This document shows, in pieces, positions 20,176 through 64,000 of a stretch of DNA of 64,000 nucleotides (position 1 is its first letter; every line of letters begins with the position of its first letter). Source of the stretch: Haematococcus lacustris (taxonomy: Eukaryota; Chlorophyta; Chlorophyceae; Chlamydomonadales; Haematococcaceae). Made by a program: the position numbers and the translations under genes. The stretch is taken from assembly GCA_030144725.1 (NCBI GenBank), contig JASKMD010000007.1, positions 8,419,568 through 8,483,567 of the forward strand, read 5' to 3'. Below the pieces are notes generated by a model. The model did no database searches. It was not told the origin of the DNA and saw only the letters and a list, made by a program, of their open reading frames with translations.

Positions 20176-20550
20176 ATGTCCGAAATCGCTAGTTCCGTTC
20201 TTAAGTCCGTGCCGAACCACTGTCAGCGGGGCATCAATTCGTCCAGGAATAGACACGCTAGCACCCAGGACAGCACGGAGACGTCGTGACCAGTCTCCAC
20301 CGCGCGCGAAATCCCCAACGCAGCGTACCACAAAGCAGAAGGCAGACGGGAAACATCCCGAGCAGGAACAAGAGGAGCAACGGGAACAGCAGGGGGAGCA
20401 GCGGCAAGAGCAACAGCATGAGCGCCAGCAGCGGCAAGGGCAACAACATGAGCTTGCTGGTGAATGTGCAGGTGACACTGGCTGACAAGAGCAACACTAG
20501 CAATAAGCGTCTTGAGCAGCTGAAGAGAGAATGCATAATCCAAAAGGAGC
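20176..20550 (+). pseudogene. Left-arm copy of the arm-encoded basic protein, frameshifted
   Basis: ATG 20176 opens MSEIASSVLKS, but relative to the right arm a small indel (CTTAAGTCCGTGCCGAAC versus CTTAGAGGCCGAAC) moves it out of frame within 10 codons. The downstream homologous segments (SGASIRPGID, ARRRRDQSPPRAKSP, Glu/Gln-rich tail, VNVQVTLADKSNTSNKRLEQ) remain readable in other frames. The last portion ends KRECIIQKEQSKP, as in the right arm. It is therefore a decayed twin of 25489-25719. Confidence 0.5.
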
Positions 20551-20565
20551 AGAGCAAGCCCACCC

Positions 20566-21355
20566 CCTCCCAACCTTGCGTTGCCCCTCCCTGCCCAGCC
20601 CTGCCCCACCCCCTCCCAGCATTGCGTTGCCCCTCCCTACCTGTCCAGCCCTGCCCCACCCCCTCCCAGCTCTGCCCCACCCCCTCCCAGCCTGGCCCCA
20701 CCCCCTCCCAGCCTTGCTTTGCCCCTCCCCTCCCTGCCCAGCCCTGCCCCACCCCCTCCCAGCCTTGCGTTGCCCCTCCCTACCTGTCCAGCCCTGCCCC
20801 ACCCCATCCCAGCCCTGCCCCACCCCATCCCAGCCCTGCCCCACCCCATCCCAGCCCTGCCCCACCCCATCCCAGCCCTGCCCTACCCCATCCCCTCCCA
20901 GCCCTACCCCACCCCATCCCAGCCCTGCCCCACCCCCTCCCAGCCTTGCGTTGCCCCTCCCCTCCCTGTCTAGCCCTGCCCCACCCCATCCCAGCCCTGC
21001 CCCACCCCCTGCCCTCCCAGCCCTGCCCCATCCCAGCCCTGCCCCACCCCATCCCAGCCCTGCCCCACCCCATCCCAGCCCTGCCCCACCTCCTCCCCTC
21101 CCTGTCCAGCCCCACCCCATCCCATCCCTGCCCCACCCCCTCCCTGCCCATCCCTGCCCCACCCCCTCCCTGTCCAGCCCTGCACCACCCCATCCCAGCC
21201 CTGCCCCACCCCATCCCAGCCCTGCCCCACCCCATCCCAGCCCTGCCCCACCCCATCCTAGCCCTGCCCCACCCCACCCCATCCCATCCCTGCCCCTCCC
21301 CTCCCTGCCCAGGCCTGCCCCACCCCCTCCCCTGCCTTTCCCTGCCCTGCCTGTA
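20566..21355. repeat. C-rich minisatellite of the left arm
   Basis: Units of about 15-25 bp built from CCCAGCCCTGCCCCACCCCA and CCTTGCGTTGCCCCTCCC. The reverse complement forms 24483-25352 in the right arm. It generates Pro-rich open frames of more than 300 codons that are not genes. Confidence 0.95.
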
Positions 21356-21454
21356 GGTGTGTGGCAGTGCAGGCTGCAGGTAGCAGCAGGAGTGCATGAG
21401 CAGCAGCTGCAGGCTGCAGTGCATGTGTTGCAGTGCATGAGCAGCGGCAGCAGC

Positions 21455-22178
21455 AAAGAAGAAGAAGAAGACTACTCCGGTATTCACCGGCGTGCATTAA
21501 GGGAGGAGCTACCGCCTGGGGCGCGGCCTGCTCCCACCAATCGAGCCAAGAAAGAGGCGACCCCCCTACCCTCCCTCCCTCTTAGTAGCCCTGAGTCTGT
21601 AGCTCGTCTTTGCAATGGAGTGGGCTGTCTCCACCGCGTGTCTTGTTAGCTTGTGTAAAAGTTTAGTAGTGTTATCTTGTGAGATCCCCAAGGCCAGGAG
21701 GTGTTGCCGTGTGTGTGCTTCATACGTTATGCCCCCTATGCCCAGGAGGATGGGTCTAATCTCCACCATGTGGCCTACCTTGCGTATGGTTTGAGCTAGA
21801 TTGGTGTGTTGGTTGAGTGCCTTGTCTAATTGATCCGTCCACCTTGAGTCCGAGCAGTATTTGATTTCTATGATGATGACCCGTTTGATGGCTTTGACAC
21901 GTTTGCCCGTCTTCGTTGTTGGCATCACCATGAGAATGTCCGGTCTGGTGGTGTTTTTTGGTTGCTGCGCGGCAGCAGCAACAGGATGTAATGCATGACC
22001 AGGAGTGCAAGGACAGCAACATGTGCGGTGTGTGTCTGGTTGCATGCAAGCTCATTTTAAGGCATAGATCTGGCATGGTCTGCGTTGGTCTTGGCAGATC
22101 CATGCAAATAAAGGCATGCAATTTGCGGTTGTTCAACCATGCCATTTCTTGTTTAGCCGCATATGGACACCACATTGG
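21455..22178 (-). mobile_element. 3' fragment of a non-LTR retrotransposon (LINE), 5'-truncated
   Basis: Minus-strand ORF 22045-21566 (159 aa) contains RPDILMVMP, KRVIIIEIKYCSDSRWTDQL and PILLGIGGITYEAHTRQHLL. This resembles the PD-(D/E)XK endonuclease-like C-terminal domain found after reverse transcriptase in algal non-LTR elements. After the stop come a short 3' UTR, the conserved tail CTCCTCCCTTAATGCACGCC with hairpin CCGGT-GAAT-ACCGG (about 21510-21470), and a terminal (CTT)n run (21470-21455, minus sense). Reverse transcriptase is absent, so the 5' part is truncated. The SINE immediately to its right carries the same tail. Confidence 0.65.
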
Positions 22179-22191
22179 TTGTGTAAGACAA

Positions 22192-22382
22192 AAGAAAGAA
22201 AGAAAGAAAGACTACTCCGGTTTACACCAGCGTGCATTAAGGGAGGACTCCGGCATGGGGCGCCGACACTGTCTCACCAGAGGTACTTTTTCGTCGTAGT
22301 GGAGTCGAACCCACGACCTCTCAGTTGTAGGAATCACCCTTAACCAACTGAGCCACTTCACCGCACGACGGGGCGGGATAAT
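22192..22382 (-). mobile_element. tRNA-derived SINE, complete, with 13-bp target duplication
   Basis: TTGTGTAAGACAA occurs at 22179-22191 and 22383-22395 and brackets a 191-bp insert in minus orientation. The head contains RNA polymerase III box A (TGGCTCAGTTGG, 22355-22344) and box B (GGTTCGACTCC, 22321-22311) in tRNA-like spacing. The body ends with AGTCCTCCCTTAATGCACGC, a hairpin CTGGT-GTAA-ACCGG, GAGTAGT, and a (CTTT)n tail at 22210-22192. The last 40 bp match the 3' end of the adjacent LINE fragment, which would let the LINE's reverse transcriptase copy this RNA. Confidence 0.85.
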
Positions 22383-22468
22383 TTGTGTAAGACAATGTTC
22401 CCGGTGATGGGCAATTGCAACTCGAATATCAGTGTTTACAATAGACCTAGCGTCCTTGACCATGCCAG

Positions 22469-23790
22469 TTGCAGCGTCGATGTAATACCGTGTGGTGCCA
22501 TATGGTTGGATTTGGTGCCATATGGTTGGATTTGGCGTGGATCACTGCCAGGCCTACACTTGCTAAGCATGACCGTGATGCATACATGCAGAGGGGGTAT
22601 GTAGCAGGTGGCTCCCACGTTTGTAGCATTAGCGCATCACCGCGTGGTGGTGTTGTCCATACAAGGGACATGTGGCGCACCACACCCTAGTATGTGGCTG
22701 GATGTGGTGAGCCTCCACTTCAGGTACCATCCGTAGTTCAGCTAGCTGTGACACATTGGGTATGGATCACTGCCAGGCCTGCACTTGCTAAGCATGGCCG
22801 TGATGCATACATGCAAAGGAGGTATGTAGCAGGTGGCTCCCACGTTTGCAGCATTAACGCATCACCGCGTGGTGGTGTTGTCCATACAAGGGACATGTGG
22901 CGCACCACACCCTAGTATGTGGCTGGATGTGGTGAGCCTCCACTTCAGGTACCATCCGTAGTCCAGCTAGCTGTGACACATTGGGTATGGATCACTGCCA
23001 GGCCTGCACTTGCTAAGCATGGCCGTGATGCATACATGCAAAGGAGGTATGTAGCAGGTGGCTACCATGTTTGCAGCATTAGCGCATCACCGCGTGGTGG
23101 TGTTGTCCATACAAGGGACATGTGGCGCACCACACCCTAGTATGTGGCTGGATGTGGTGAGCCTCCACTTCAGGTACCATCCGTAGTTCAGCTAGCTGTG
23201 ACACATTGGGTATGGATCACTCCCAGGCCTGCACTTGCTAAGCATGGCCGTGATGCATACATGCAAAGGAGGTATGTAGCAGGTGGCTCCCACGTTTGCA
23301 GCATTAACGCATCACCGCGTGGTGGTGTTGTCCATACAAGGGACATGTGGCGCACCACACCCTAGTATGTGGCTGGATGTGGTGAGCCTCCACTTCAGGT
23401 ACCATCCGTAGTTCAGCTAGCTGTGACACATTGGGTATGGATCACTGCCAGGCCTGCACTTGCTAAGCATGGCCGTGATGCATACATGCAAAGGAGGTAT
23501 GTAGCAGGTGGCTCCCACGTTTGCAGCATTAACGCATCACCGCGTGGTGGTGTTGTCCATACAAGGGACATGTGGCGCACCACACCCTAGTATGTGGCTG
23601 GATCTGGTGAGCCTCCACTATAGGTACCATCCGTGGTCCAGCTAGCTGTGACACATTGGGTGTGGATCACTGCCAGGCCTGCACTTGCTAAGCATGACCG
23701 TGATGCATACATGCAAAGGGGGTTCGTAGCAGGTGGCTACCACATTTGCGGCCTTAGCGCATCACCGCATGGTGGTGTTGTCCAGAGGAG
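22469..23790 (+). repeat. 225-bp satellite, about six tandem copies
   Basis: Unit starts recur at 22469 (diverged first copy), 22694, 22919, 23144, 23369 and about 23594, an exact 225-bp period. Internal copies differ by only a few bases. As 225 is divisible by 3, the same frame (GEPPLQVPS, then HVCSI-ASPRGG, then RDMWRTTP) is open in every unit with one stop at the same place. No start context or splice evidence supports translation. It occupies the spacer of the inverted-arm element. Confidence 0.95.
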
Positions 23791-24482
23791 GGGCGTAGGT
23801 ATCATTTGAGAAGAGGATACACGGCTAATGACCACCACCGTTTTCGTCATTACATCTTGACCATTCACTGCTTACAAATCACGTTGTGTGGCATGGAACT
23901 GAACGGAAGCTCAGGACAACCTTTTGACAGCTTTTGTACCATGCAACATTCTTCCTGCACTGCCACACACCTACAGCCTGCTGCTGCTGTCCATGCACTG
24001 CTCATGCACTACTGCCACACACCTACAGCCTGCTGCTCTTGTTGCTGCTCATGCACCGCAACAAACCTGCAACCTGCTGCTGCTGCTGCTCATGCACTGC
24101 AGCCTGCTGCTGCTCATGCACTGCAGCACACCTGCAGCCTGCTGCTACCTGCAGCCTGCACTGCCACACACCTGCAGCCTGCTGCTGCTGCCCATCCACT
24201 GCTGCTGCTGTCCATGCAATATTCTTCTCAGATGAGCTATGACTGCACTGATAAGCTCTGACTGCACTGCCACACACCTACAGCCTGTTGTTGCTGTCCA
24301 TGCACTGCTCATGCACTACAACCTGCTGCTCTTGATGTTGGTCATGCACCCTAACACACCTACAACCTGCTGCTTCTCATGCTCTGCCGCACATGCACTG
24401 CAGCCTGCTGCTGCTGCTCATGCACTTAAGCACACCTGCAACATGCTTCTACCTGCAGCCTGCACTGCCACACACCTACAGG
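23791..24482. repeat. CTGCTG/CTGCAG-rich low complexity, inner part of the right arm
   Basis: Repeats of CACACACCTGCAGCCTGCTG and CTGCTGCTCATGCACTGC. The distal portion (about 24390-24482) is the inverted counterpart of 21350-21445 in the left arm. No gene. Confidence 0.8.
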
Positions 24483-25352
24483 CAGGACAGGGAAAGGCAG
24501 GGCAGGGCAGGGAGGGGCAACGCAAGTCTGGGAGGGGGTGGGGCAGGGCTGGGAGGGGGTGGGGCAGGCTGGAGGGGGGTGGGGCAGGCCTGGGCAGGGA
24601 GGGGGTGGGGCAGGGATGGGATGGGGTGGGGAAGGGCTGGGAGGGGAGGAGGTGGGGCAGGGCTGGAATGGGGTGGGGCAGGGCTGGGATGGGGTGGGGC
24701 AGGGCTGGGAGGGCAGGGGGTGGGGCAGGGCTGGGATGGGGTGGGGCAAGGCTGGACAGGGAGGGGAGGGGCAACGCAAGGCTGGGAGGGGGTGGGGCAG
24801 GGCTGGGATGGGGTGGGGTAGGGCTGGGAGGGGAGGGGGTAGGGTAAGGCAGGGCTGGGATGGGGTGGGGCAGGGCTGGGAGTGGGTGGGGCAAGGCTGG
24901 ACAGGGAGGGGAGGGGCAACGCAAGGCTGGGAGTGGGTGGGGCAGGGCTGGGAGGGGGTGGGGCAGGGCTGGGCAGGTAGGGAGGGGCAACGCAAGGCTG
25001 GGAGGGGGTGGGGCAGGGCTGGGCAGGGAGGGGAGGGGCAACGCAAGGCTGGGAGGGGGTGGGGCACGAATGGGAGGGGGTGGGGCCGGGCTGGGCAGGG
25101 CTGGGAGGGGCAACGCAAGGCTGGGAGGGGGTGGGGCAGGGCTGGGAGGGGGTGGGGCCGGGCTGGGCAGGGCTGGGAGGGGCAACGCAAGGCTGGGAGG
25201 GGGTGGGGCAGGGCTGGGAGGGGGTGGGGCCGGGCTGGGCAGGGCTGGGAGGGGCAACGCAAGTCTGGGAGGGGGTGGGGCAGGGTTGGGATGGGGTGGG
25301 GCAGGGCTGGGCAGGGAGGGAAGGGGCAACGCAAGTCTGGGAGGGGGTGGGC
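24483..25352. repeat. G-rich minisatellite of the right arm
   Basis: GGGGCAGGGCTGGGAGGGGG units, the inverted equivalent of 20566-21355. The repeat number differs between arms, as expected for independent slippage. The long open frames on both strands are artefacts. Confidence 0.95.
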
Positions 25353-25488
25353 TTGCTCTGCTCCTTTTGGATTATGCATTCTCTCTTCAGCTCCTCAAGA
25401 CGCTTCTTGCCAGTGTTGCTCTTGTCAGCCATTGTCACCTGCACATTCACCAGCAAGCTCATGTTGTTGCCCTTGCCGCTGCTGGCGC

Positions 25489-25719
25489 TCATGCTGTTGC
25501 TCTTGCCGCTGCTCCCCGTTGCTCCTCTTGTTCCTGCTCGGGATGTTGCCCGTCTGCCTTCTGCTTTGTGGTACGCTGCGTTGGGGATTTCGCGCGCGGT
25601 GGAGACTGGTCACGACGCCTCCGTGCTGTCCTGGGTGCTGGCGTGTCTATTCCTGGACGAATTGATGCCCCGCTGACAGTGGTTCGGCCTCTAAGAACGG
25701 AGCTAGCGATTTCGGACAT
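25489..25719 (-). CDS. Basic Arg/Gln-rich protein encoded in the right arm (intact copy)
   Basis: A 76-aa frame from ATG 25719 to a stop at 25489. It reads MSEIASSVLRGRTTVSGASI, then RPGIDTPAPRTARRRRDQSP, a Lys/Arg region and an acidic Gln tail. It is preceded by CTGCAG|GTACA, so it may be an internal exon instead. A second conserved segment beyond the stop (25440-25360, MADKSNTGKKRLEELKRECI) has coiled-coil character and is likely a further exon. The left-arm twin at 20176 is frameshifted. The high Arg content would suit nucleic-acid binding. Function unknown. Confidence 0.4.
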   Translation of the reverse strand: MSEIASSVLRGRTTVSGASIRPGIDTPAPRTARRRRDQSPPRAKSPTQRTTKQKADGQHPEQEQEEQRGAAARATA

Positions 25720-26034
25720 TGTACCTGCAGCGTGCAAGCCATCTATAACCGCCAGCCACAACCGCTGCTAGGCTGTGCGGCGATTGCACTAACTGGCCCA
25801 GCCTGGCGTGCGCAGAGCCAACAGCCACGCAGTGCGGTTAACGTTGACGTGCGCCCAAGCAGGCTGGCTCACCTGCCTGGTCGGCACCGGAATCGCCTGT
25901 GTGAGCCCGCTTCCACTGTGCGATGGCTAGCTGGGCTACGCGGAAGAGACGGGGCCCACTTGGGACATGTTTCCCTTTTTCGTCTTCTTCAAGTTACCCA
26001 AAAACGTGCCATGTGTAACCGGGAGACCTAACTG

Positions 26035-27587: not shown

Positions 27588-29294
27588 GGCCCCCTTTCCA
27601 ATGGACTCCGGGCGGAGTTGGAGTCGGCACTTTTTTGAACTCCAACTCCACCCCTTTCCATTGCTCCGGAGCCCGGAGTCGGAGTCAACCTGCAGCCGTA
27701 GGAACTTGAAGGATCGAGCGAGGCTGTGAGCTGCGAGCTGTGTGCTGCGAGTTGCGATGGATGTCGATGATGATGTGCGGCGCCAGCTTCGTCGTCGTCG
27801 ATGGAGGCGTGTAATCATTCAAGTCCTCCTCAGTGTGGTGCACTGGTATTGGGAGCAAGGACGCATCGTCAAGAGGCAAGCAAAGGAGTGCCGCAATCCC
27901 CAAAGGAGCCGCATGTCCCAAGAGCCACTGACCTGGTTGCCTCGCGTGCAGGCGCTACAACCGCGTTAGTGAGTATTGGAAAGAACCCAGAAACTACAAG
28001 ACTTTATACCCCAACGTCGTCGACGTGGTGGGGCACGTAGCCCGCGAAACAGCGTATCGTTCGCGGTTTCACATCTCAAGGTGCTGCCTCTGATTGTTGC
28101 CAATACACCACCACCACCTCCTAGCTCCACCCAACAAGCCCCATAACACTGCCATAACACCAGCACCTCCTAGCACCACCCAACAAGCCCCATAACACTG
28201 CCATGTCTTTGCAGGGACCTCTTCAACGTTGTCTACCAAGCAATTGCTACCCATCCGTTGCTGCAACGTACTTGCCAACGTAAGGACTTCCTCACCATTG
28301 AAGAGCAGCTGGGCATCTTCTGCACGTTTGCAGCCCAAGGCGGAAGCTTCACCCAAGTAGCTTTGGCCATGGGGTGCAGTATCACCTCCGTCAGCCGGTG
28401 TGTGGACAGTGTTGCTACAGCCATCTGGGACCGCTTGTCAGACAAGATTGCTTGGCCTGCCAATGAAGTGGAGCTGCAAGCCAATGTCCTAGGCTTTCAG
28501 CAGCTGAGTGGGTTGGTGCAGGTGGTAGGTGCCATTGATGGCACCCATGTGCGTCTAGCATCTGCGCCTCCCAATGGGGGCCATAATTTCTATTGCCACA
28601 AGGGGTTCCACTCGATTGTGGCCCAAGCCGTTGTCAACCACCAGGGCAAGGCCATGGATGTGCATGTAGGGCATGCTGGCCGAGCGCACGATGCTCATGT
28701 CTTCACGGACTCGCCCGTGGGTGAGCAGCTGCTAGATCCTGACAGCCCCATAGCACAGGCCTTGTCAAGGAGCATGAAGAGAGTGGGTGGGGTGGATGTG
28801 CCATACCAACTTGTTGCTGATTCTGCATACCCGGCACGTGAGCACGTGCTGCCTACATTCAAGAACACTGTAGCTGCCAATGATCCTGCCCGTGCACACT
28901 TCAATGACATGCATAAGAAAGCACGTATCAAGATTGAGCACTTTTGGGGCTGGTTAAAGCACAAGTTCCGGTGCTGCAAGTGCATGACCACACGGGTAGA
29001 AACTGCTGTTAAGGTTTTCATGGCATGCTGCATCTTGCTGAACATGTGCATTGATGAGGGGGAGGCAGTGCCCCAAGAAGTGGCGGCAGAGGCATGGCTG
29101 CACTATGAGCAGCGCTTGGCTGACGATGAGGCTGCAATGGAGCGCCTTGTCAGGGTCCTGGTCATGGGATGCGCCAGCTGGGCAAGGGCTGTGGTGAGGT
29201 TAGTGCTGCAGAGGACTCCGCAGCCGACTCCAACTCCGGACTCCAACTCCGGACTCCGGACTCCAACTCCAACTCCGTCATTGGAAAGGGGGCC
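27588..29294 (+). mobile_element. Complete PIF/Harbinger DNA transposon
   Basis: GGCCCCCTTTCCAATG at 27588-27603 is perfectly inverted at 29294-29279. TCA at 27585-27587 and 29295-29297 is a 3-bp target duplication, the length expected for PIF/Harbinger, though TCA departs from the usual TWA. Subterminal GGAGTTGGAGTCGG-type repeats extend both ends. The 1.7-kb interior encodes one three-exon transposase. The right flank begins CAGTTAGGTCAGG, resembling the end of the 6.2-kb inverted-arm element, so this copy landed in the terminus of a related element. Confidence 0.9.
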
Positions 29295-29385
29295 TCAGTT
29301 AGGTCAGGTCCGTCCGAAACATGGCTCATTTTTGCCGTCTAATTCCGCACGTCGTTACAGGCGCCAAGAAAGCCAAGTCACTTGA
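27757..29385 (+). CDS. PIF/Harbinger transposase (DDE_Tnp_4 type), three exons
   Basis: Exons 27757-27845, 27952-28080 and 28215-29385 join in phase (1389 nt, 463 codons). The junctions read VVHW|RYNRVSEYW and FHIS-R|DLFNVVYQAI. The catalytic triad is in place: Asp181 in VVGAIDGTHV, Asp232 in GRAHDAHVF, Glu314 in KIEHFWGWLKHKF, with LVADSAYP and FNDMHKKAR typical of the family. A His/Arg-rich N-terminus precedes the core. The open frame has no stop before the right TIR and continues about 30 codons into flanking DNA. The family normally ends inside the element, so either the native stop was lost or a 3' splice is used. Otherwise apparently intact. Confidence 0.85.
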
Positions 29386-29817: not shown

Positions 29818-32086
29818 GTGCTTGCTTACATCAGCCTGATGCCCGCAATGTGCATGTGGACCCCCATGCCTTAGGGGGTGTGGCTGCCCGCTGCCTTGCT
29901 GTCACCTAGCATTGAAGTGGAGCCTAGCAGTCACCAATAGACCCCAACTGACATGGCAATGCAGCCACGATGCATGGCCAAAGGGACAGTGCACTTCCAT
30001 GGCCGTGTATGATGCGCCCATGTGCACTGCGCAGCTGGGTTTCTGGAAAAGAGTGGGGTTCTCAGCACCATTTTGGATGCACTGAGTGCGTGCTTAAGAG
30101 GCATTTGAGGTGTATATCACGACCAGCCTGCTTTGGTGGGCCCATGTGCTCACCACTGCCTATGATGCAACTGTGCGTGCAACATCACATGCAGCCACCG
30201 TGAAATCGTTTGCTTTGTTTGATGCATGCCAAGCGTGGCTTGATGCTGTGCTGTGCGTGCTTGCAGCTGAAGCACGGCGGGCAGCTGCTTCTGCAAGTGA
30301 GTGTGTGGTGCCTTCAGGCTGTTAGGGTTGGCCTCATGTTGCCCACCATTGATATGCCCGCATGCTCACGAGCCAGCTGCAGTGATTCTTGCACGTCATG
30401 CAGCTGGTTGTTCAGAGTATATAGGGCAAGGTGACTAGGATGGTTGAGGTGGTGTAAGTAGGCCCGGAGGGGGTTCATGACAGTCACCATCGTAAGAGCA
30501 TGGGTAGCTGTGCCAGCGTATGGAGCTAGCTATGCCACCCCATTTGCTTAGTTCTCCAATGGCGTTGAGTGTATCCAGGGGCTTGATGATATCTGTTGTT
30601 TTGCTGCTGTGCAGTTGGGTGGGGTATGGTCCCATACTGCTGCCCCCTTCCTCCGCGTTGCCTTGAACGTGTTGCTTGCTGCAAATGCCCACCACCTGCT
30701 GCTTCCCGACACCCTCTTCCTGGTTGTGAGTAGGTGTATGGAGCAAGTCAGGCCTTCAGTTATTGTCCCTATCTGGGGTTTTTGGAATTCAGGTTGTGTC
30801 AATTAGGCGTAGCTTACCCGCCCCTCTTTTTGTCTACCACGTGACTTGTTGCTTCCAACTGCTCATGTCTGGTATCAATGAGTCTGGACAGTTGTAATAG
30901 TCCTGGTTGTCTCCGCTTTCTTTAGGAAGAACTGCCTGCGCTGCGGCGCCTTGGTGCTGCTGGCCTTGTGCCCGTCTTCTGGCTTGCTTGTTGCTGCACC
31001 CTAGCTGTGTCCTTAGGCCGTGGCAGATGGTGGAACCTGCAGAGCACTGCGGGGGCATTGATGGCCGGGCTTGCAATAACGCATAAGCCCTAGTAGTTTA
31101 CACAGGCTGTAAGCTTAATTGTTAACTTTGATGGGGTGCCCACAGGTCTAGTGCCACCCCGTATGGGGTTGGTAGTTATCGAGGGTGCAACCGAGGTTGC
31201 TTCAACTTGTTTGGAGTAGCTGAGGTGATATTACCCACAGTCAAACAAGTTGTTCCATGTTGAGTGAGTTTTGTTTTGACTAATAGCAGTGCAACATTGA
31301 TGTCTAGGCCACTGGGGCTGCTGGAGTGAGGGCTGTTGTTGCAAGTGGGTGTCCTGCCGCAGCTAGTTGTCAGGTAAACTTATCCATCCCTGCATCAACA
31401 TTGTATGCTTTCACTCACCACTTTGTCACCTTGCAGAGGAATACATGCCATTTGAGGTTGGAGAGCCTACTACGTCAACTGCTCAATGGCAAACAACCAG
31501 TGGTTAGTGGGCAAGTTTGCAAACCATGTCTTGGCATGTGGGCATTGTTGGATGACACCGCCAATGACAGTGATCTCCCCGCTTGTGACGCATATATCTA
31601 CTTGTGCAGTTCTGTGTTGTCCAGGTAAAGGGCATCTGAAGGTGGAATAGAATGTTGTCACCGAAGCTACCCTTGAAAGTGAAGCCCACGCCTGGCTGCC
31701 TCAGGGGCCCTATTGAGGTGGGGAGGCTGCCTTGGCACCTGGTCTAGCCTGGCGCATGCGTTTGATTCCCTTCCGAGACAGCACCAGGGCCTGCTCAGTG
31801 GCAGAAGTGGAGCGGTCATGTGCCATGGCAGGCATGGCAGCAGGCGGATGTGGAGACAATCCATGTGCTTCTCATGTCAACCCCACTTTCCCCCATTTCT
31901 CTTGGACGATGAAGGGGTGGCTGGCGAAATGCAGGCTATGATATCTTTTTGTGGCCAGGTTGGGGTCGGTTCCAATGCAAGGCCACATGTGGTGCTCTTG
32001 GGTGCCCTAACCCATCCTAAGCCGTTGTGGCAAACAAGGGTTAAGGATTGGCGCTCAATGGAGTGGTACATGGCATGGCCACTGAG
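29818..32086. other. Low-density region without convincing genes
   Basis: Several short frames on both strands (for example minus 31076-30834 with QDYYNCPDSLIPDMSSWKQQ) look partly gene-like, but I could not link them. 31165-31275 is the second copy of the dispersed repeat at 16046-16163. 32079-32086 (CCACTGAG) is the left target duplication of the hAT element. Confidence 0.4.
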
Positions 32087-32132
32087 TAGGGACCGTCCCA
32101 TCTACGTAGATCTACGTAGATCTAGATGCTAG

Positions 32133-32222
32133 ATTTAGATGGTCTAGCAGCATAGTGGTTATCTAGCAAAGAGGAGTGCTAGATGGACGATAGACGTCAT
32201 CACGCCCAGGTTCGACTCCTGA
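32133..32222 (+). other. tRNA-like sequence near the hAT left end
   Basis: TCTAGCAGCATAGTGGTTATC resembles a tRNA D-arm/box A, and GGTTCGACTCC at 32209-32219 is a perfect box B. The spacing is longer than in a normal tRNA and no clean cloverleaf is seen, so it may be a SINE head or a decayed tRNA. Confidence 0.25.
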
Positions 32223-32337
32223 CAACCTCACAATTAACAGGAAATAGTATTATCTCCTCCGACGCTGACCTTGCATACGCTATCAATGGGAGTGACAAGG
32301 CACTGCAGTTGACGACATTACAATGTACAACTACATC

Positions 32338-32908
32338 GGTGCCACACACGGTCAGCCTGCTGCTCACACCCACACATGGCACGCTAAGAGTCCTGGGCGG
32401 CTGCTAGGCACGGTGCCACACACAGCCAGCCTGCTGCTCACACCCACACATGGCACGCTAAGAGTCCTGGGCGGCTGCTAGGCACGGTGCCACACACAGC
32501 CAGCCTGCTGCTCACACCCACACATGGCACGCTAAGAGTCATGGGCGGCTGCTAGGCACGGTGCCACACACAGCCAGTAGAGCGCGACTGGTTAGTTTAA
32601 CATCCTGATGTTTTGGGTTTAACCACATCTTTAACCAATCTTTAACATACCCGTTTTGCTACCCTGGGACTGCTTCTCACTGGCTACTTCTGCCGGCATA
32701 GTGTCGCTGGGTGCATTGCCGTGTCGCGACCAGAACGACAGCAAAAAGGGACTCGTATCGCGACCAAACGGTCAACTTTAACAATCGGTTTAACACTAAC
32801 CTTTAACCAGTCCGGTCGCGCTCTAACAGCCAGCCTGCTGCTCACACCCACACATGGCACGCTAAGAGTCCTGGGCGGCTGCTAGGCACGGTGCCACACA
32901 CAGCCAGC
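32338..32908. repeat. 74-bp tandem repeat interrupted by a MITE
   Basis: GGTGCCACACACAGCCAGCC begins units at 32338, 32412, 32486 and 32560 (period 74). The fourth unit is split by the insertion at 32578-32825 and resumes at 32826. A 35-bp piece of the unit (CTGCTGCTCACACCCACACA, then TGGCACGCTAAGAG) recurs at 38566-38597 on the far side of the satellites. Confidence 0.9.
32578..32825. mobile_element. 248-bp hAT-type MITE
   Basis: TAGAGCGCGAC (32578-32588) is inverted at the right end (GTCGCGCTCTA, 32815-32825), with ACAGCCAG duplicated on both sides (32570-32577 and 32826-32833). It has no coding capacity. It is inserted inside a 74-bp repeat unit and nested within the larger hAT element, whose ends (TAGGGACC) are different, so two hAT families are present. 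Confidence 0.9.
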
Positions 32909-33067
32909 CCACTCGCAGAAAAGATCGCATTATAGGTGCCACCTAAGGGTACTTTTTTTTTTGATGGAAGGCTGCAGTTGCTCATAAGCAAGCCAACGCT
33001 GTTGAAAAAAAAAATCAACTCCAAGTGGCTGGCGAGATTCGAGCGTTGGCCTGTCGTGCCGTTTTGA

Positions 33068-33175
33068 GAGGCAACCAGTACTGGTTGAGGTCCAGTACTG
33101 GTTGCTAACCAGTACTGGACCTCAACCAGTACTGGTTGGCATCCAGTACTGGTTGCCATCCAGTACTGGTTGTCA
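33068..33175. repeat. Short CCAGTACTGG array
   Basis: Six copies of the 10-bp palindrome CCAGTACTGG joined by TTGAGGT, TTGCTAA, ACCTCAA, TTGGCAT and TTGCCAT linkers. This looks like an early stage of the large arrays that follow. Confidence 0.95.
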
Positions 33176-33832
33176 GCTTTGGCAGAGTTAGGGCATGGAG
33201 ATATCAAAGTTTCCGCGTATCACATTCAAGCCTTCCCAATAGTACTACTTGCATCGCTGGTCTTAGCGCTTCGCTGGAAGCTCCTCAACGGCTGTCTACG
33301 TCGATGTGCGATGTCGATGTCCAGTCGATGTGCGCTACAATGTGCGCTTGTGATGGGTTGACAACTCTCCATACTGCCTAGTCTTTCCGACGTGCGATGT
33401 CCAGTCGATGTGCGCTATCATGTGCGCTTGTAATGGGTCAACATCTCTCTATAATGTCAAGTCCTATGGATGAAGCGAGTATGCTTACAGACATTTGGAT
33501 GATAGCTGAAGGGTTAGGGCTGAGGACTGAGGTCAGGGCTGGGAGCCTTGGTTAGGTACTGAAACTTGGTTAGGTACAAGAGGACAACACGCTATAACAC
33601 ATTGCATGTGCTATCACTCACTAAGCAATGTCATTGATCACTATCACTATCTAGCAATGTCATTGATCACTTATCACTATCACTAACATTACATAGTACA
33701 CTGCTTCGCATGCTATGTAGCATCAACCGAGACACTCCATCCGTCCTCTATCTCATTCCCTTGTAATGCAAGGCGACCTCATTGTAATGAAGGTAGTCGT
33801 CCAAGCTCCAGCCCCTGCAAAGTGACACAGAG

Positions 33833-35678
33833 TCTGGCTGGCTGGCTGTGACCAGTACTGGCTGGCTGTGACCAGTACTGGCTGGCTGACCAGTACTGGC
33901 TGGCTGGCTGTGACCAGTACTGGCTGGCTGACCAGTACTAGCTGGCTGGCTGTGACCAGTACTGGCTGGCTGACCAGTACTGGCTGGCTGGCTGTGACCA
34001 GTACTGGCTGGCTGACCAGTACTGGCTGGCTGGCTGTGACCAGTACTGGCTGGCTGACCAGTACTGGCTGGCTGGCTGAGACCAGTACTGGCTGGCTGAC
34101 CAGTACTGGCTGGCTGGCTGTGACCAGTACTGGCTGGCTGACCAGTACTGGCTGGCTGGCTGTGACCAGTACTGGCTGGCTGACCAGTACTAGCTGGCTG
34201 GCTGTGACCAGTACTGGCTGGCTGACCAGTACTGGCTGGCTGGCTGTGACCAGTACTGGCTGGCTGACCAGTACTGGCTGGCTGGCTGTGACCAGTACTG
34301 GCTGGCTGACCAGTACTGGCTGGCTGGCTGTGACCAGTACTGGCTGGCTGACCAGTACTGGCTGGCTGGCTGTGACCAGTACTGGCTGGCTGACCAGTAC
34401 TGGCTGGCTGGCTGTGACCAGTACTGGCTGGCTGACCAGTACTGGCTGGCTGGCTGTGACCAGTACTGGCTAGCTGACCAGTACTGGCTGGCTGGCTGTG
34501 ACCAGTACTGGCTGGCTGACCAGTACTGGCTGGCTGACTGTGACCAGTACTGGCTGGCTGACCAGTACTGGCTGGCTGACTGTGACCAGTACTGGCTGGC
34601 TGACCAGTACTGGCTAGCTGACCAGTACTGGCTGGCTGGCTGTGACCAGTACTGGCTGGCTGGCTGTGACCAGTACTGGCTGGCTGACCAGTACTGGCTG
34701 GCTGACTGTGACCAGTACTGGCTGGCTGACCAGTACTGGCTAGCTGACCAGTACTGGCTGGCTGGCTGTGACCAGTACTGGCTGGCTGACCAGTACTGGC
34801 TGGCTGACTGTGACCAGTACTGGCTGGCTGACCAGTACTGGCTGGCTGGCTGTGACCAGTACTGGCTGGCTGACCAGTACTGGCTGGCTGGCTGTGACCA
34901 GTACTGGCTGGCTGACCAGTACTGGCTGGCTGGCTGTGACCAGTACTGGCTGGCTGACCAGTACTGGCTGGCTGGCTGTGACCAGTACTGGCTGGCTGAC
35001 CAGTACTGGCTGGCTGACCAGTACTGGCTGGCTGGCTGTGACCAGTACTGGCTGGCTGACCAGTACTGGCTGGCTGGCTGTGACCAGTACTGGCTGGCTG
35101 ACCAGTACTGGCTGGCTGACTCTGACCAGTACTGGCTGGCTGACCAGTACTGGCTAGCTGACCAGTACTGGCTGGCTGGCTGTGACCAGTACTGGCTGGC
35201 TGACCAGTACTGGCTGGCTGACCAGTACTGGCTGGCTGACTGTGACCAGTACTGGCTAGCTGACCAGTACTGGCTAGCTGACCAGTACTGGCTGGCTGGC
35301 TGTGACCAGTACTGGCTGGCTGACCAGTACTGGCTGGCTGGCTGAGACCAGTACTGGCTGGCTGACCAGTACTGGCTGGCTGGCTGTGACCAGTACTGGC
35401 TGGCTGACCAGTACTGGCTGGCTGGCTGAGACCAGTACTGGCTGGCTGACCAGTACTGGCTGGCTGGCTGTGACCAGTACTGGCTGGCTGACCAGTACTG
35501 GCTGGCTGACTGTGACCAGTACTGGCTGGCTGACCAGTACTGGCTAGCTGACCAGTACTGGCTGGCTGGCTGTGACCAGTACTGGCTGGCTGACCAGTAC
35601 TGGCTGGCTGGCTGTGACCAGTACTGGCTGGTTGACCAGTACTGGCTGGCTGACCAGTACTGGCTGGCTGGCTGTGAC
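33833..35678. repeat. CCAGTACTGG / GCTGGCTGT satellite, period 38
   Basis: About 48 units of 38 bp, each made of a 20-bp and an 18-bp sub-unit (GCTGGCTGTGACCAGTACTG and GCTGGCTGACCAGTACTG), so roughly 95 copies of the palindrome. Occasional TAGCTG and TGAGAC variants are shared by neighbouring units, showing local spread. The minus-strand open frames of 690-757 codons (GQPASTG, SASQYW) are artefacts. Confidence 0.97.
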
Positions 35679-36345
35679 CTGCAGCAGGGGGGCAGGGGGG
35701 CAGCAGCAGCAGCAGGGTGGCAGCAGCAGCAGCAGGAGCAGGGGGGCAGCAGCAGCAGCAACAGGGGGGCAGTAACAGCAGGGGGGCAGGGGGGCTGCAG
35801 CAGCAGACAGTAGGCGCAACCAGCGCTGGTGCCCCCCCATTCAGCAGCAGGGTTACAGCAGCAGCAGCAGCAGCAGCAGGGGGGCAGGAGGGCAGCAGCA
35901 GCAGTGGGTGGGCAGCAGCAGCAGTAGGGGGGCAGGGGGGCTGCAGCAGCAGGGGGGCAGGGGGGCTGCAGCAGCAGCAGCAGGGGGGCAGGGGTGCTAC
36001 AGCAACAGATAGTAGGGGCACTATAGCACCTACCTACCTTTAGGCTGCTTGGTGACTGCTGCTGGAATGGGGGTGATTGTGTAGGGAAAGTGGAGGAGAT
36101 GTGTTCATCAGACCTGCAATCATCAGACCTGCAATCAAGGTAGGGGGGCAGCAGCAGCAGCAGCAGCTGCAGGGGGGCTGCAGCAGTAGCAGCAGCAGCA
36201 GTAGGGGGCATGGGGGCAGCAGCAGCAGTAGGGGGGCAGCAGCAGCAGCAACATGGGGGCAGCAGCAGCAGCATGGGGGCAGCAGCAGCAGTAGGGGGGC
36301 AGCAACAGCAAGGGGGGCAGCAGCAGCAGATAGTAGGGGCACTAT
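35679..36345. repeat. GGGGGGCAGCAGCAGCAG low-complexity tract
   Basis: Alternating G-runs and (CAG)n on the plus strand. It is broken by a short repeat unit ACTATAGCACCTACCTACCT at 36019 and 36341, each preceded by CAGATAGTAGGGGC, so the tract contains a duplication of about 320 bp. Confidence 0.9.
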
Positions 36346-36968
36346 AGCACCTACCTACCTTGCTATGACTGCTGCTGGGAAGGGGGTGGGAGTGGAGGAT
36401 TGAAGACGGGGAGGGAGGGTAGCTGTGGAAGGCGGGAGGCAGGGAGGCGGGGAGGCGGGAGGCAGGGAGGCGGGAGGCGGGGAGGCGGGAGGCTCAGTTG
36501 GGTTTAAAGGGGTGGCTTGAAGGCGGGGTGGGTTGGGTTAGGGGCATGGGTTGGGTTGGGTAGGGGCCTGGGTTGGGTTGTGTAGGGGCATGGGTTGGGG
36601 GCATGGGCGGGGGTCGGGGCGGGAGAGGGAGCGGGGGCCGGGGAGGATAAATTGGGAGGGGGTGGTTGTGTAGGGAAAATGGAGGGGAGGTGCCCATCAG
36701 ACCTGCAACCAAGGGGCGTGCACGTGAGGTAGGGTGACCAGGCTGTGCACTGTGTTAGCTATCACCGCGGCCTCACCTTTGTGGTCCTCCTGGCCTCCTA
36801 CCTGCTCACCCCTGGCAACATATCCCATGCGCCAGTGGGTTGGGGCTGTGGTGGGGTGTGTAGTTGTGTGTAGGGAAGGGAAGGTGGGGTGAGGAGGGGG
36901 CTGCAACATGGGGGCAGCAGGGGGGCAGGGGGACTGGTTAAATTTTTGTTTTTTTTTTATTTTGGGGG

Positions 36969-38428
36969 GGGGGTGTGAACCAGTACTGGTTTGGTGTGAA
37001 CCAGTACTGGCTGATCACCAACCAGTACTGGTTTGGTGTGAACCAGTACTGGTTGGGGGTGAAACAGTACTGGCTAGGGTGAACCAGTACTGGTTAAATT
37101 TTTGTAAATTTTTTATTTTGGGGGGGGGGTGTGAACCAGTACTGGTTTGGTGTGAACCAGTACTGGTTAGGGGTGAACCAGTACTGTTTAGGAATAAACC
37201 AGTACTGGTTGGGAATAAACCAGTACTGGTTGGGAATAAACCAGTACTGGTTGGGAATAAACCAGTACTGGTTGGGAATAAACCAGTACTGGTTGGGGGT
37301 AAACCAGTACTGGTTGGGAATAAACCAGTACTGGTTGCGAATATACCAGTACTGGTTGGGGGTAAACCAGTACTGGTTGGGAAGAAACCAGTACTGGTTG
37401 GGAAGAAACCAGTACTGGTTGGGAATAAACCAGTACTGGTTGGGAATAAACCAGTACTGGTTGGGAATAAACCAGTACTGGTTGGGAATAAACCAGTACT
37501 GGTTGGAAATAAACCAGTACTGGTTGGGGGTAAACCAGTACTGGTTGGGAATAAACCAGTACTGGTTGGGAATAAACCAGTACTGGTTGGGAATAAACCA
37601 GTACTGGTTGGGGGTAAACCAGTACTGGTTGGGAATAAACCAGTACTGGTTGGGGGTAAACCAGTACTGGTTGGGAATAAACCAGTACTGGTTGCGAATA
37701 TACCAGTACTGGTTGGGGGTAAACCAGTACTGGTTGGGAATAAACCAGTACTGGTTGGGAAGAAACCAGTACTGGTTGGGAATAAACCAGTACTGGTTGG
37801 GAATAAACCAGTACTGGTTGGGAATAAACCAGTACTGGTTGGGAATAAACCAGTACTGGTTGGGAATAAACCAGTACTGGTTGGGGGTAAACCAGTACTG
37901 GTTGGGAATAAACCAGTACTGGTTGGGAATAAACCAGTACTGGTTGGGAATAAACCAGTACTGGTTGGGGGTAAACCAGTACTGGTTGGGAATAAACCAG
38001 TACTGGTTGGGAATAAACCAGTACTGGTTGGGAATAAACCAGTACTGGTTGGGAATAAACCAGTACTGGTTGGGAATATACCAGTACTGGTTGGGGGTAA
38101 ACCAGTACTGGTTGGGAATAAACCAGTACTGGTTGGGAATAAACCAGTACTGGTTGGGGGTAAACCAGTACTGGTTGGGAATAAACCAGTACTGGCTGCG
38201 AATATACCAGTATTGGTTGGGGGTAAACCAGTACTGGTTGGGAATAAACCAGTACTGGTTGGGAAGAAACCAGTACTGGTTGGGAATAAACCAGTACTGG
38301 TTGGGAATAAACCAGTACTGGTTGGGAATAAACCAGTACTGGTTGGGAATAAACCAGTACTGGTTGGGGGTAAACCAGCAACGGTTGGGAATAAACCAGT
38401 ACTGGTTGGGGGTGGACCAGTACTGGTT
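36969..38428. repeat. 21-bp CCAGTACTGGTTGGGAATAAA satellite
   Basis: About 68 units. Length 21 keeps frame, so several frames stay open over more than 450 codons (plus: NQYWLGI or PVLVGNK; minus: PNQYWFI or VYSQPVL), but composition is purely repeat-driven. Variant units (GGGGGTAAA, GGGAAGAAA, GCGAATATA) recur in the same order in blocks of several hundred bp, showing higher-order duplication within the array. Confidence 0.97.
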
Positions 38429-38654
38429 TTCTCGTATCTCCTCAGCCCGATTTTTCCTCGATTTTAGGTTTACACCCCCATTCTTAGAACCGCTAAAAAA
38501 CACATTCCATCAAGCCACTTTGGCAAAATTTTCAACTTTTCTCATGAACTTTTCTGCGAGTGCCTGCTGCTCACACCCACACATGGCACGCTAAGAGGGG
38601 GAGGGGAGGGTGGGAGGCAGGGTTGTGACTTTGCGTTCTTTCACTTTTGCATTC

Positions 38655-38700
38655 TTTCATTCTTGCATGAAATCGATGAAATTTCAATGCAAGAATGAAA
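38655..38700. other. Perfect 13-bp stem hairpin
   Basis: TTTCATTCTTGCA (38655-38667) is inverted at 38688-38700 with a partly complementary interior (TGAAAT...AATTTCA), forming a nearly continuous hairpin. A related degenerate sequence occurs at 40090-40160. Possibly the centre of a small foldback element. Confidence 0.6.
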
Positions 38701-38879
38701 GACTTGAAACGGCATGAAAACGCGTGGTTGCCGTGAGAGTTTTGACCTGAAACTTTGCACACAGCCCTGTTTAACATCTGTCAACCCAATGCAACAATCA
38801 GGATACGATTTGGTGCACCACATCCACCAAAACCAAAGGTCATTAAGGATATCCAACAAGGATACCACAGCTCCAAACC

Positions 38880-39738
38880 ATGCATACTAAGCTGGTGAGT
38901 TAGCCCCCACCGTTGCTGTTCATGCATGATGCCATGCTATTGCCCCCCGCGGCACCTCCATACGGCACGAACGCCTTGCAACACCCCACATAAGGTGACA
39001 AGTGACAACAACACCACACTAACAATAACACCACCAACAATAACACCACCACCAACAACAACAAGACCACCACACCACACCACACCACACCACCACCACC
39101 AAGCCATCAAGTACCCCACCGTTGCTGATACTCCCCCACCGTTGCCTAGAGTGGGCTGGCTGGCCGCTACTGCTAGCGCCCGCTCCATGCTGCCCGCCCA
39201 AGGCTGGCCTTTAGGGAGGAGGAAATTGGCTGCCACTCTTGGGTGCCGCTCCTGGCTGCCCGCTCTAGGCTGCCCGCTCCAGGCTGCCCGCTCCAGGCTG
39301 CCCGCTCCAGGCTGCCCGCTCCAGGCTGCCCAATCCAGGCTGCCCGCTCTAGGCTGCTACGCCAAGGGCTGTTGGGTTGGGTAGGGAGGGGGCTACGGCG
39401 TGTGTTGTGGGATGGGGGGAGGGTAGGTGGGGTGGCAGACTCGGAGGTGGCGGTGGTGGGAAGGGGGAGGGAAGGGGGGAGGGGGCAAGGGGCAGGAGTG
39501 TGACCATAAGACCTGCAGCCAATAAGGGGCATCCTTGCAATCAGGCTGGACATTGGGGGCCATTCATGTGCAGGAGCCGGGCACTTACAGTTTTGCTCCA
39601 TGTTATCATGCCTTGCAATCTCATTGCTGGCTCCTTAACGCCGGCTGCTCTGCCGCCTTGCCTGCAACCACCCAACCACACCTGCCACACACGTGCTACC
39701 TCAAATCACGCGTCATGTTGCACCTGCAAGCAATCAAT
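38880..39738. repeat. ACA/ACC-rich and GCTCCAGGCTGCCC low-complexity spacer
   Basis: 38995-39105 is an (AAC/ACC)n tract, 39245-39350 is a 14-bp minisatellite (GGCTGCCCGCTCCA), and 39400-39500 is G-rich. No gene is supported. Confidence 0.7.
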
Positions 39739-39744
39739 AGCATG

Positions 39745-40690
39745 GCACTTGCAAGTGATTCTCCAAGCGGTTCATGGCACTAGCAAGTGCGTTTTCAAGC
39801 GCGTGATGTTATTGATGAACATGTCCTCGCCGCACTGGAGGCAAATCCCACAGTCCTCCGTTGCGCTCTGATCCAACTGCTGCGCGGGCAGTGCGACGCC
39901 TCTTCCCGTTAGGTTGTATAGGGGTCGCATTGCCCAGGCCAATCACGTTGTGCTGGAGCACCCGTGGCAATGCCAACGAAGGGGAAAGCAGCAATGCGGC
40001 CACGAGCATTATGTTGATGGCCACCAGTTGCCGCGACAGCCTCAGCCATCGGGCTCTACTCGTGCTGCCGGGTGCTGGGGGCTACCGGGATTTTTCATTC
40101 TTGCAATGAAATGTTGCATTTTTGCACGTGAAAGATTTCACTGCAAGATTTCATGAAATACTGCAATTTTCACAACCCTGGTGGGAGGACAAGCATCTCA
40201 CCTTAGCTAGCTCACGGAGCTCCTTCATGGTCACCTGTTTGACCTCCTTGTAGAGCTCGTCGAGCAGCTGCGTGCGATAATGCTTCTTTTTGAGCAGCTC
40301 GAGCCCCAAGAGCTGGAAGGCAGCCTGGAGATGGATATTGTCCACGGTCATGAACGGAGCTTGTGACGAGAAAGAGTCCTATTCGGCGCCTGACAGCCCG
40401 CTGCATGTCTGCAGACACTGGTGCACCCTTGTCCTCGCGTGGCAATGGCCCAAACTGTGTGTCATGGCTGCGCTTAATCGCTGGGTGTTGTTCACCGTCG
40501 ACCTGACATTTGTGCCGGGAGTGCAGCTGGCTCATGTTGGCGACGCTCAGCTGGGTTCGCTTGTGTGGTGAGCATCGCTTGCATACGCACACTACTACGC
40601 GTGAGAACGTGCTGGCCGCAGCCTTTGCCATCACTTCAGCCGGAGCCATATGTACACCATTGTAAGACTGTATGGTACCATCCATAGCAG
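39745..40690 (-). pseudogene. Decayed hAT transposase / BED-finger sequences
   Basis: Minus-strand segments look coding. Around 40640-40490, VVVCVCKRCSPHKRTQLSVA then NMSQLHSRHKC fits the C..C...L.H...C spacing of a BED zinc finger. 40375-40206, after an acceptor at GCCGAATAG, codes DSFSSQAPFMTVDNIHLQAA and then LLGLELLKKKHYRTQLLDEL to a donor AAG|GTGAGA. A second BED-like piece CGICLQCGEDMFINNITRLK lies at about 39870-39790. No RNase-H/hAT dimerisation domain follows, so these are remnants near the right end of the 8.8-kb element. Confidence 0.45.
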
Positions 40691-40923
40691 ACCACAAGCG
40701 ACAGCACCAAGCAGTCCAAACGGGACCGCTGCCCGCGACCCAAAAATATTTTGGCACGCGCAGGGCATTGCGACTTGTGCGGCAGAATGCACGGGTTTTA
40801 AGCAAGCAGCAAGAGCGCTTAAAAACGCCATCTACCGCATCTAACATCTAACATGCCGGTCTAACGTTAGACCGTCTAATCTAGTCTAACGTTAGATGGG
40901 TCGGGACGGTCCCTACCACTGAG

Positions 40924-47374: not shown

Positions 47375-48528
47375 CCGGCCGCCTTGTTGCCCCTGCCTGA
47401 GTCCATTGATGTTCTCTGCCCTCTACACGCAGTTTACCCCGACATTAACGCGACAGCAATGTGCAGTCAGTTTAGAGAGGCACATGAGGTAGCCCCTCTC
47501 TCTCTCGGCCTGGCCCGTCTCAGGGTTGTCTCCCTCGCCCTGCTGGTCCTGCCCCTCTTTCCCCTCACTTAGCCTTGCCCTGACCTCCTTGCACCTCCCT
47601 CGCTGCCCACCAGCATGGCCCCTCCACCTGCTTCACTGTCCCCTCCCCAACTACTGGCCACCAGGAACCCCTCCGCCTCCACCTCAGAGCAGCTGCTGAG
47701 CCGGGATGGGCTACCATGCATGGTGTCAGGGTGGGGAGATGCATGGGGCAACAACAACATGTGACGGTGGCGATGGACCTGGGCGGGAGGATACCACCAA
47801 TGGGCAAATGTGCAGGTAGCACCTCTTCCGTACCGAATTTGCAGGCCACTTCAGTCAGTGCCAGCCCTAACGGCATCAGATGGCAGGCCTACTAAGCTCA
47901 TGTAGCTGCCGTGTTCAAGGAGCTTGAGGCTGCACTGGGCCGACCAGAGGCGCCTGAGACACAGCCAGAACAGCTGGTACGGTGGCAAGCAGAGCGTCAT
48001 GCGCAGTACTGGAACATGGTGAGCTAGCAGGGTAGCAACACATTAGCTATAATGCTGGCCTGGAGCATGCGGGGGGTTAGGGTTAGGGTTAGGGTTAGGG
48101 TTAGGGTTAGGGTTAGGGTTACGGTTAAGGTTAGGGTTAGGGTACACTGGCCGGTCAAAGCTGCTGGACCTGGCCGACCGGGCAGAGAGTGTGAACACAC
48201 TGCGGACACGGAGATCATAGCTGCGTAAGCAGCGGGAGAAGGCCACCCGGCACGAGGTGGCGCAGCAGCGGTGGCAAGAGCCGGCCCAGGTGCAGCGGCA
48301 TCAGAGGCGGCAAAAGAGCCGGCGGTGTGCTGCACAGCTCCATCCTCAGCAGCATTCAGTCTTATTGGCAACAGCCGTGTTGGTAAGGGGGAAACGAGGC
48401 AGCGGCACAGAAGGTATGCATGTACTCTGCTGGCATGTTTGTGTTTTTTTTTAAGTACTTTGCAGGACAACAACTTCCAATGCTGATCCTGTCGTCTTGC
48501 CCCTTTCATTGAAAAGAACAAAACAACA
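47375..48528. other. Region with a degraded conserved domain and interstitial telomeric repeat
   Basis: 47815-48017 (plus) codes QATSVSASPNGIRWQAY, stop, AHVAAVFKELEAAL, matching the minus-strand frame at 50392-50258 (QATSASASPKGISWQAYQAH, VAAMFKELEAAL). The telomere-type array follows at 48073. No intact gene. Confidence 0.5.
48073..48142. repeat. Interstitial (TTAGGG)n telomeric repeat
   Basis: About 12 tandem TTAGGG units with TTACGG and TTAAGG variants, embedded between unrelated sequences. TTAGGG is one of the telomere repeat types reported in Chlamydomonadales. Confidence 0.95.
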
Positions 48529-59051: not shown

Positions 59052-59065
59052 CCGCACGGGTGCGG

Positions 59066-63982: not shown

Positions 63983-64000
63983 GATAGCAAAGCTATTTTG

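Follow-up and report, generated by a model that had tools for sequence, protein, structure and literature searches.

The locus examined here raises the question of whether a satellite found between the ends of a DNA transposon belongs to that transposon or was brought there by another one. In a stretch of 64,000 nucleotides of the Haematococcus lacustris genome (the window; positions 8,419,568 to 8,483,567 of contig JASKMD010000007.1, assembly GCA_030144725.1), a pair of hAT-type ends at 32087–40915 encloses large arrays of a short palindrome, CCAGTACTGG, hereafter the box. An earlier note, made from the sequence letters without database searches, had taken this interval for one 8.8-kb hAT-type element in which the palindromic satellites were born, or by which they are carried, and had proposed DNA transposons as a route of satellite dispersal. 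We find instead that the interior is a stack of separate insertions, and that the CCAGTACTGG arrays, judged by the copies read, form the end regions of a different, CACTA-like family; the nested-transposon explanation as a whole is held with high confidence. Positions are counted from the first letter of the window, and features lie on the plus strand unless the minus strand is named.

The palindromic arrays lie in a separate insertion

All 156 exact boxes of the window fall within 32910–38562, an interval of 5653 bp that starts with CACTCGCAGAAAAG at 32910 and closes with one inverted copy of it ending at 38562, a perfect 14-bp pair flanked on both sides by the duplication CC (32908–32909 and 38563–38564). 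On its left this interval borders a 74-bp minisatellite of the hAT element (32337–32909, itself interrupted at 32578–32825), and a piece of the same unit is found on its right, at 38563–38597. After excision of the 5653 bp together with one CC, the rejoined sequence agrees with the 74-bp unit at all 73 positions compared, 33 of them beyond the junction, so that the neighbouring units serve as the unoccupied site of the CACTA-like element. Five exact 13-bp pairs beginning with CACT occur in the window, and one other of these, inside the long arms of an element at 19861–26034, also has a 2-bp flank match; the argument for nesting therefore rests on the rejoined site and not on the ends alone.

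Inside the inner element, a left-end cluster of 6 palindromic boxes with a spacing of 17 bp (33075–33169) is followed by an array of 86 exact boxes spaced mostly by 18 and 24 bp (33852–35663), by a CAG- and G-rich interior (35681–36930) in which long stretches are 86–93% similar to the corresponding region in several other copies, and by a second array of 64 exact boxes spaced mostly by 21 bp (36980–38426). The unit of the first large array is 42 bp, the sum of its 18- and 24-bp box spacings, and not 38 bp as had been read earlier; the 21-bp unit given for the second agrees with its box spacing. The window copy is shorter than the members of about 11.1 kb, and most of their interior is absent from it. 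Two automatic calls in this region were rejected: the sole call of ARAGORN, a "tRNA-Leu" at 33070–33154, coincides with the palindrome cluster and is considered spurious, and one frame of the inner element has a DNApolII_N match in Pfam (28.7 bits, over the cut-off), which sits on the palindrome cluster and is considered a chance hit. For the frame that crosses the 21-bp array, a search for relatives gave 3156 candidates, none of them with an E-value of 0.001 or better.

Distribution of the two families in the genome

The ends of both elements were searched in the window's own assembly (307.9 Mb). For the 14-bp end CACTCGCAGAAAAG, 172 + 169 exact matches (341) were obtained, compared with 0 + 0 for the reversed control. 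From the 100 places listed among these 341, 13 plus/minus pairs of at most 11.4 kb and one of 14.4 kb were fetched, and boxes were present in all 14, with 3 to 344 per copy. The flanking duplication was 2 bp long in 11 pairs, 3 bp in two and absent in one. The left end of the window copy is 89–100% identical to that of all 13 other copies, and its right end is 89–97% identical to that of 12 of the 13, a 258-bp copy matching only the last 37 bp. Boxes were also found within 651 bp of 19 ends in a less selected sample, which comprised the first 20 listed CACTCGCAGAAAAG ends, paired or unpaired. Two types of ends recur, one with a small box cluster from about 165 bp and the other with a longer array from about 136 bp. 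Several copies of 9.7–11.4 kb have common interior stretches, and one of them (C32_3249087) has none in common with the reference copy. Some end pairs lie 16–31 kb apart and may contain an autonomous copy or nested inserts.

The 13-bp hAT end TAGGGACCGTCCC gave 70 + 67 exact matches, with 19 + 27 for its reversed control, and since the control reaches 46 against 137, about a third of these matches may be due to chance. Among the 100 of the 137 places that were listed, 17 plus/minus pairs were chosen by eye and the 14 under 10 kb were fetched. Perfect 8-bp duplications flank 12 of the 14 (two mismatches in L084, no duplication in L088), so that the ends do co-occur as pairs elsewhere in the genome, a point on which the earlier note had made its reading depend. 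Its suggested check whether further hAT copies also carry CCAGTACTGG arrays came out negative: no box and no CACTCGCAGAAAAG end is contained in any of the 14 fetched hAT pairs.

Boxes in 14 of 14 CACTA-like pairs and in 0 of 14 hAT pairs are the reason for assigning the arrays to the CACTA-like family. An origin of the satellites inside the hAT element, or their belonging to it, would draw on the fact that the arrays are flanked by true hAT ends, paired and with a perfect duplication, but they sit in a separate insertion whose site rejoins perfectly and the box is confined to the CACTA-like set of the two, which refutes this origin for the copies read and leaves it a negligible probability. 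The more general suggestion, that a DNA transposon provides a route for satellite dispersal, is supported, with a carrier other than the proposed hAT element.

The outer hAT element and its own arrays

The outer pair itself is exactly as the earlier note had described it, a perfect 13-bp inverted repeat and an 8-bp duplication bracketing 8829 bp. The left repeat, TAGGGACCGTCCC, occupies 32087–32099 and is inverted without change at 40903–40915, and both are directly flanked by CCACTGAG (32079–32086 and 40916–40923). The window was scanned for 8-bp duplications with inverted ends of at least 11 bp after masking tandem arrays, which returned five places corresponding to four separate elements and a fifth place inside one of them: the 32087–40915 pair, 32578–32825, 38618–40180, 19861–26034 and one internal to the latter. 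In dinucleotide shuffles of the masked sequence any such pair appeared in 2 of 40, and a 13-bp pair in 1 of 40. The left end with its subterminal TCTA/TAGA repeats (32087–32336) shares 84–96% identity with its counterpart in 13 of the 14 fetched sibling pairs; the right end, with subterminal repeats and the terminal inverted repeat, spans 40650–40915 on the minus strand. Ends of hAT elements are often dense in short repeated motifs, such as TCTA/TAGA here. The hexamers (A/G)TCTA(A/G) or (C/T)TAGA(C/T) reach 54 and 62 per kb in the outermost 130 bp of the two sides, compared with 0.1 per kb in the rest of the outer element and 0.9 per kb window-wide; for the bare 4-mers, a palindromic array near 1551–1631 equals the hAT ends in density. 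A tRNA-derived piece suspected by eye near the left end was discarded, as Rfam gave no match for 32080–32340 at E-values up to 1.

The decayed BED-finger sequence reported by the earlier note is present, and it includes exon 1 of a hAT transposase (40202–40649, minus strand; BED finger and start of DUF659, judging by its relatives), read from 40649 to 40202 and broken by a frameshift and by a gap of 10 codons. It matches six H. lacustris proteins (P0044–P0049), three of them at 88–97% over 75–99% of the query. In Pfam, DUF659 was found in four of the six and Dimer_Tnp_hAT in two, one protein having both and one neither, and three of the four DUF659 matches score below the cut-off. The finger in exon 1 was recognised by eye, no match to Pfam BED being obtained, and a direct Pfam scan of exon 1 gave no significant match. 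With the six relatives as queries, the rest of the transposase (catalytic and dimerisation domains) was not found in 32087–40915, and by its sequence the window copy is classed as a non-autonomous member with exon 1 only. The earlier assignment to the hAT type agrees with the 8-bp duplication, the recurring paired ends and the DUF659/Dimer_Tnp_hAT relatives. One relative, P0049 (QJQ45_025092), is a gene model in which part of photosystem I PsaE is joined to part of a hAT transposase and to pentamer repeats, either through an insertion into the gene or through a model error.

The arrays that belong to the hAT family itself are a GGGCT pentamer and the 74-bp repeat. The latter follows the left-end sequence in 13 of the 14 pairs (L092 has only a 23-bp stub, and in L091 the repeat and the left-end sequence are both shifted inward) and is missing from L088. 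GGGCT arrays of at least 10 units occur in 11 of the 14, with a maximum of 393 units. A piece of exon 1 is retained in 11 copies; in 9 of these the pentamer array lies 0–114 bp from the exon on its donor side, L089, L090 and L096 having lost the donor itself, and in a tenth copy, L087, a distance of 43 bp separates it from a truncated exon. In L089, L090 and L096 the array borders on or enters exon 1, looking as though it were replacing flanking hAT sequence. In L093, pieces matching residues between 43 and 625 of the 626-residue transposase cover most of it; the pentamer array separates exon 1 from the piece that follows, and the 74-bp array lies past the C-terminal piece. In four of the six sibling proteins the reading frame continues across the pentamer, which is translated as PSPAQ repeats. 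Two irregular loci were also seen: L088 has right-type sequence at both ends and lacks a matching duplication, and is perhaps two elements or a rearranged one, and at G000:C40:4739285-4753401 six hAT end sequences follow each other on one strand every ~2821 bp, which suggests a tandemly repeated unit including a hAT end.

Order of the insertions

Tandem repeats account for 4724 of the 8829 bp of 32087–40915, in line with the earlier description of a mostly satellite interior, and this interior was assembled from several insertions. Apart from the CACTA-like element, a 248-bp hAT-like miniature inverted-repeat transposable element (MITE) lies at 32578–32825 (ends TAGAGCGCGAC, duplication ACAGCCAG), and its rejoined flanks match the 74-bp unit at 99 of 100 positions. 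A 1563-bp hAT-like element occupies 38618–40180 (ends CAGGGTTGTGA, duplication GTGGGAGG), in a G-rich site beside exon 1 that is uninterrupted in five sibling hAT copies (L084, L091–L094). Without the inserts and their duplications, the hAT element measures 1347 bp. The outer shell is a non-autonomous hAT of about 1.35 kb in which both ends, transposase exon 1 and the 74-bp minisatellite are kept. Three elements inserted into this shell, the MITE and the CACTA-like one into its 74-bp array and the 1563-bp one into the intron beside exon 1.

The 74-bp array predates the entry of the MITE and of the CACTA-like element. That the hAT element was at the site first and received its inserts later is the simpler order. 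Arrival of the hAT as an 8.8-kb unit already containing the inner elements, in which case it would once have carried the palindromic arrays, is compatible with its perfect ends and duplication, as the insertion need not be old, and no evidence dates the inner insertions relative to the hAT; the inner element is nevertheless found in 0 of the 14 fetched hAT pairs and the hAT-first order is the simplest, so that we regard such an arrival as distinctly improbable.

Class of the inner family and meaning of the box

The inner ends begin with CACT and form a perfect inverted pair, with C and not A as the fifth base. They agree at 10 of 13 positions with what we take to be the plant CACTA consensus, and nine other places in the window do so equally well or better, so this resemblance alone proves nothing. 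The CACTA/EnSpm-Mirage-Chapaev-Transib clade is described as having mostly CA..TG ends and duplications of 2–5 bp (PMC12730594), and a 2-bp duplication is also reported for a CACTA element (PMC4298943). By its CACT ends and 2–3 bp duplications the inner family would fit this clade, and we call it CACTA-like.

The boxes vary little. In 48 arrays taken from 13 fetched copies and the window copy, each compared with its own consensus, changed positions amount to 173 of 17630 in boxes and to 1163 of 18415 in linkers, a ratio of 6.4 (7 of 1560 versus 97 of 1672 in the window copy). The 48 arrays hold 1738 exact boxes out of 1957, and at the linker rate of 6.3% per site about half of the boxes would be expected to be exact; after merging reverse complements, 201 linker variants were counted. 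Such low variation relative to the linkers is as would be expected of a protein-binding site. Pairs of boxes were also met in viral and prokaryote collections, in 11 and 63 stretches respectively, 42 of the 63 coming from one Porphyromonas pasteri strain.

A second palindromic array, with the box ACAGTACTGT and CTCGAGGTAC repeats, followed by sequence related to the CACTA-like right end, is located at 1428–1959. Its box is the CCAGTACTGG palindrome altered in both arms together. The sequence after the array aligns to the inner right end with a score above all 2000 shuffles and 1973 random window segments; with stricter scoring and a wider target the alignment passes narrowly (31 versus a best of 30 in 200 shuffles). 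A left end of the block was looked for and not found. Judged from its sequence, the block possibly represents a related family.

In En/Spm, the protein TNPA is described as binding repeated subterminal motifs (PMC2613891). The CCAGTACTGG arrays most likely originated from a putative binding site that was multiplied by slippage or unequal exchange, because CACTA elements, according to the same source, show a conserved subterminal motif with free spacing and TNPA-like binding. The palindromic satellites are greatly expanded subterminal arrays of the CACTA-like element. The box CCAGTACTGG would be the putative site at which the family's mobilising protein binds, and this protein would keep the box constant while the linkers drift. 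Array length would change by slippage or unequal exchange, and every transposition would carry a finished palindromic satellite to another locus. We further propose, tentatively and as a joint claim more apt to fail in some part than to hold throughout, that the family with its 341 exact ends turned the putative binding site CCAGTACTGG into kilobase arrays at both ends and accounts for most or all of this satellite across the genome, and that a sister family with ACAGTACTGT (1428–1959) did likewise with a symmetrically changed palindrome.

Several observations weigh against the main reading of the arrays and of the inner family. One of the 20 sampled ends (L125) has no box within 651 bp, though its end sequence is 88% similar. 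Boxes were sought with at most three mismatches, which limits their apparent divergence, and in the array at 1428–1841 there are 7 changes in 120 box positions and 8 in 96 linker positions, no clear difference. As to the class, the ends read CACTC and not CACTA, the duplication is mostly 2 bp and not the 3 bp typical of plants, and no transposase domain was found in the scanned non-array parts of the inner element or in 4.8 kb from the middle of one 11.1-kb copy, a 186-aa frame of which looked recombinase-like by eye and had no Pfam match. The transposase family PF02992 gave 0 genome matches in a weak search in which control genomes were silent too.

Two alternatives draw on these points. The inner family may belong to another or an undescribed superfamily that has CACT ends and 2–3 bp duplications and is not CACTA/EnSpm, as the transposase missing from the scanned parts, the silence of PF02992 (shared by the controls), the prevalence of 2-bp duplications and the modest match to the plant consensus would all allow; with the CA..TG ends and 2–5 bp duplications of most of the clade (PMC12730594), and a repeated motif in both subterminal regions, we think this rather unlikely. 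The arrays could also travel with the CACTA-like family and play no role in its movement, being a neutral satellite expanded by chance whose palindrome is kept since short perfect palindromes seed slippage and breakage. Box numbers ranging from 3 to 344, the palindrome-free CAG- and G-rich arrays in the window copy, the box at 1428–1841 that is not clearly more conserved than its linkers, and Smith's description of palindromes as hotspots of mutation in the plastid genome of a green alga (PMC7043297) are in its favour. Yet the distance from each end to the first boxes is fixed, usually at 136 and 165 bp, and one conserved box is surrounded by 201 linker variants, as in subterminal binding-site repeats, so that a purely neutral satellite seems to us the somewhat unlikely option, and multiplication of a putative binding site remains our preferred origin of the arrays.

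Comparison with known systems

Plant CACTA elements such as maize En/Spm and soybean Tgmt* are described as having CACT inverted ends and repeated motifs in both subterminal regions (PMC2613891), as the H. lacustris family does. In the latter, however, the repeated motif has the form of a perfect 10-bp palindrome and can extend over kilobases in as many as hundreds of copies; 2 bp is the usual length of the duplication, and the transposase was not found in the parts scanned. The outer family resembles hAT elements (Ac/Tam3/hobo) in its 8-bp duplications, short inverted ends, subterminal repeats and DUF659/Dimer_Tnp_hAT relatives, and differs in the GGGCT array, which reaches 393 units and often lies next to exon 1, in the 74-bp minisatellite near the other end and in a window copy that keeps exon 1 only. 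Tandem repeats on DNA transposons are already known from Xenopus MITEs and Drosophila DINE elements (PMC9659126), and with Tetris (PMC4079207) these share internal tandem repeats spread by a DNA transposon; in H. lacustris, by contrast, two unrelated families each have their own array, one with a strongly conserved palindromic core. The palindromes of the H. lacustris organelles (PMC7235400) come from the same species and are likewise short and of very high copy number, but they are organellar and described as hairpin-forming; their comparison with CCAGTACTGG is by description only. As far as a non-exhaustive search of the open-access literature shows, both a CACTA-like family with kilobase palindromic subterminal arrays and a hAT family in which a pentamer satellite lies next to exon 1 are new. 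The Haematococcus genome papers, in the parts consulted, give no account of either.

Other features of the window

The element at 19861–26034 has inverted ends (CAGTTAGGTCTCC), the duplication CCCCGTTT and long arms, whose outermost 343 bp are 96% complementary. C-rich satellites occupy both arms and a 225-bp satellite lies mid-element, tandem repeats making up 3460 of 6174 bp; in its middle, four of six frames gave only Pfam matches under the cut-offs. At 58796–63983 there is a Copia-type retrotransposon that was probably inserted recently, because its 244-bp terminal repeats are 100% identical and its frame of 1535 aa is open. For a Harbinger-type open reading frame (28258–29385), 94% of the length aligns to an H. 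lacustris protein at 99% identity. About 11.7 copies of GGGTTA at 48074–48143 represent the telomere repeat away from a chromosome end, AACCCT being reported as the telomere repeat of H. lacustris (PMC7617258).

Implications

Calling elements by end pairs in the H. lacustris genome may merge nested ones, and the first reading of this locus joined four. The origin and spread of satellites are usually inferred from worn remnants. Here the carrier, the satellite, the rejoined site and the siblings can all be read in one genome, and for two families with different arrays. If the proposed origin is true, the sequence of a satellite would be fixed by the DNA-binding protein of a transposon, and the family's mover may be a transposase that has not been described. 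Should the palindrome be the binding site of that protein, both the sequence and the length of the arrays would follow from the biology of the transposon.

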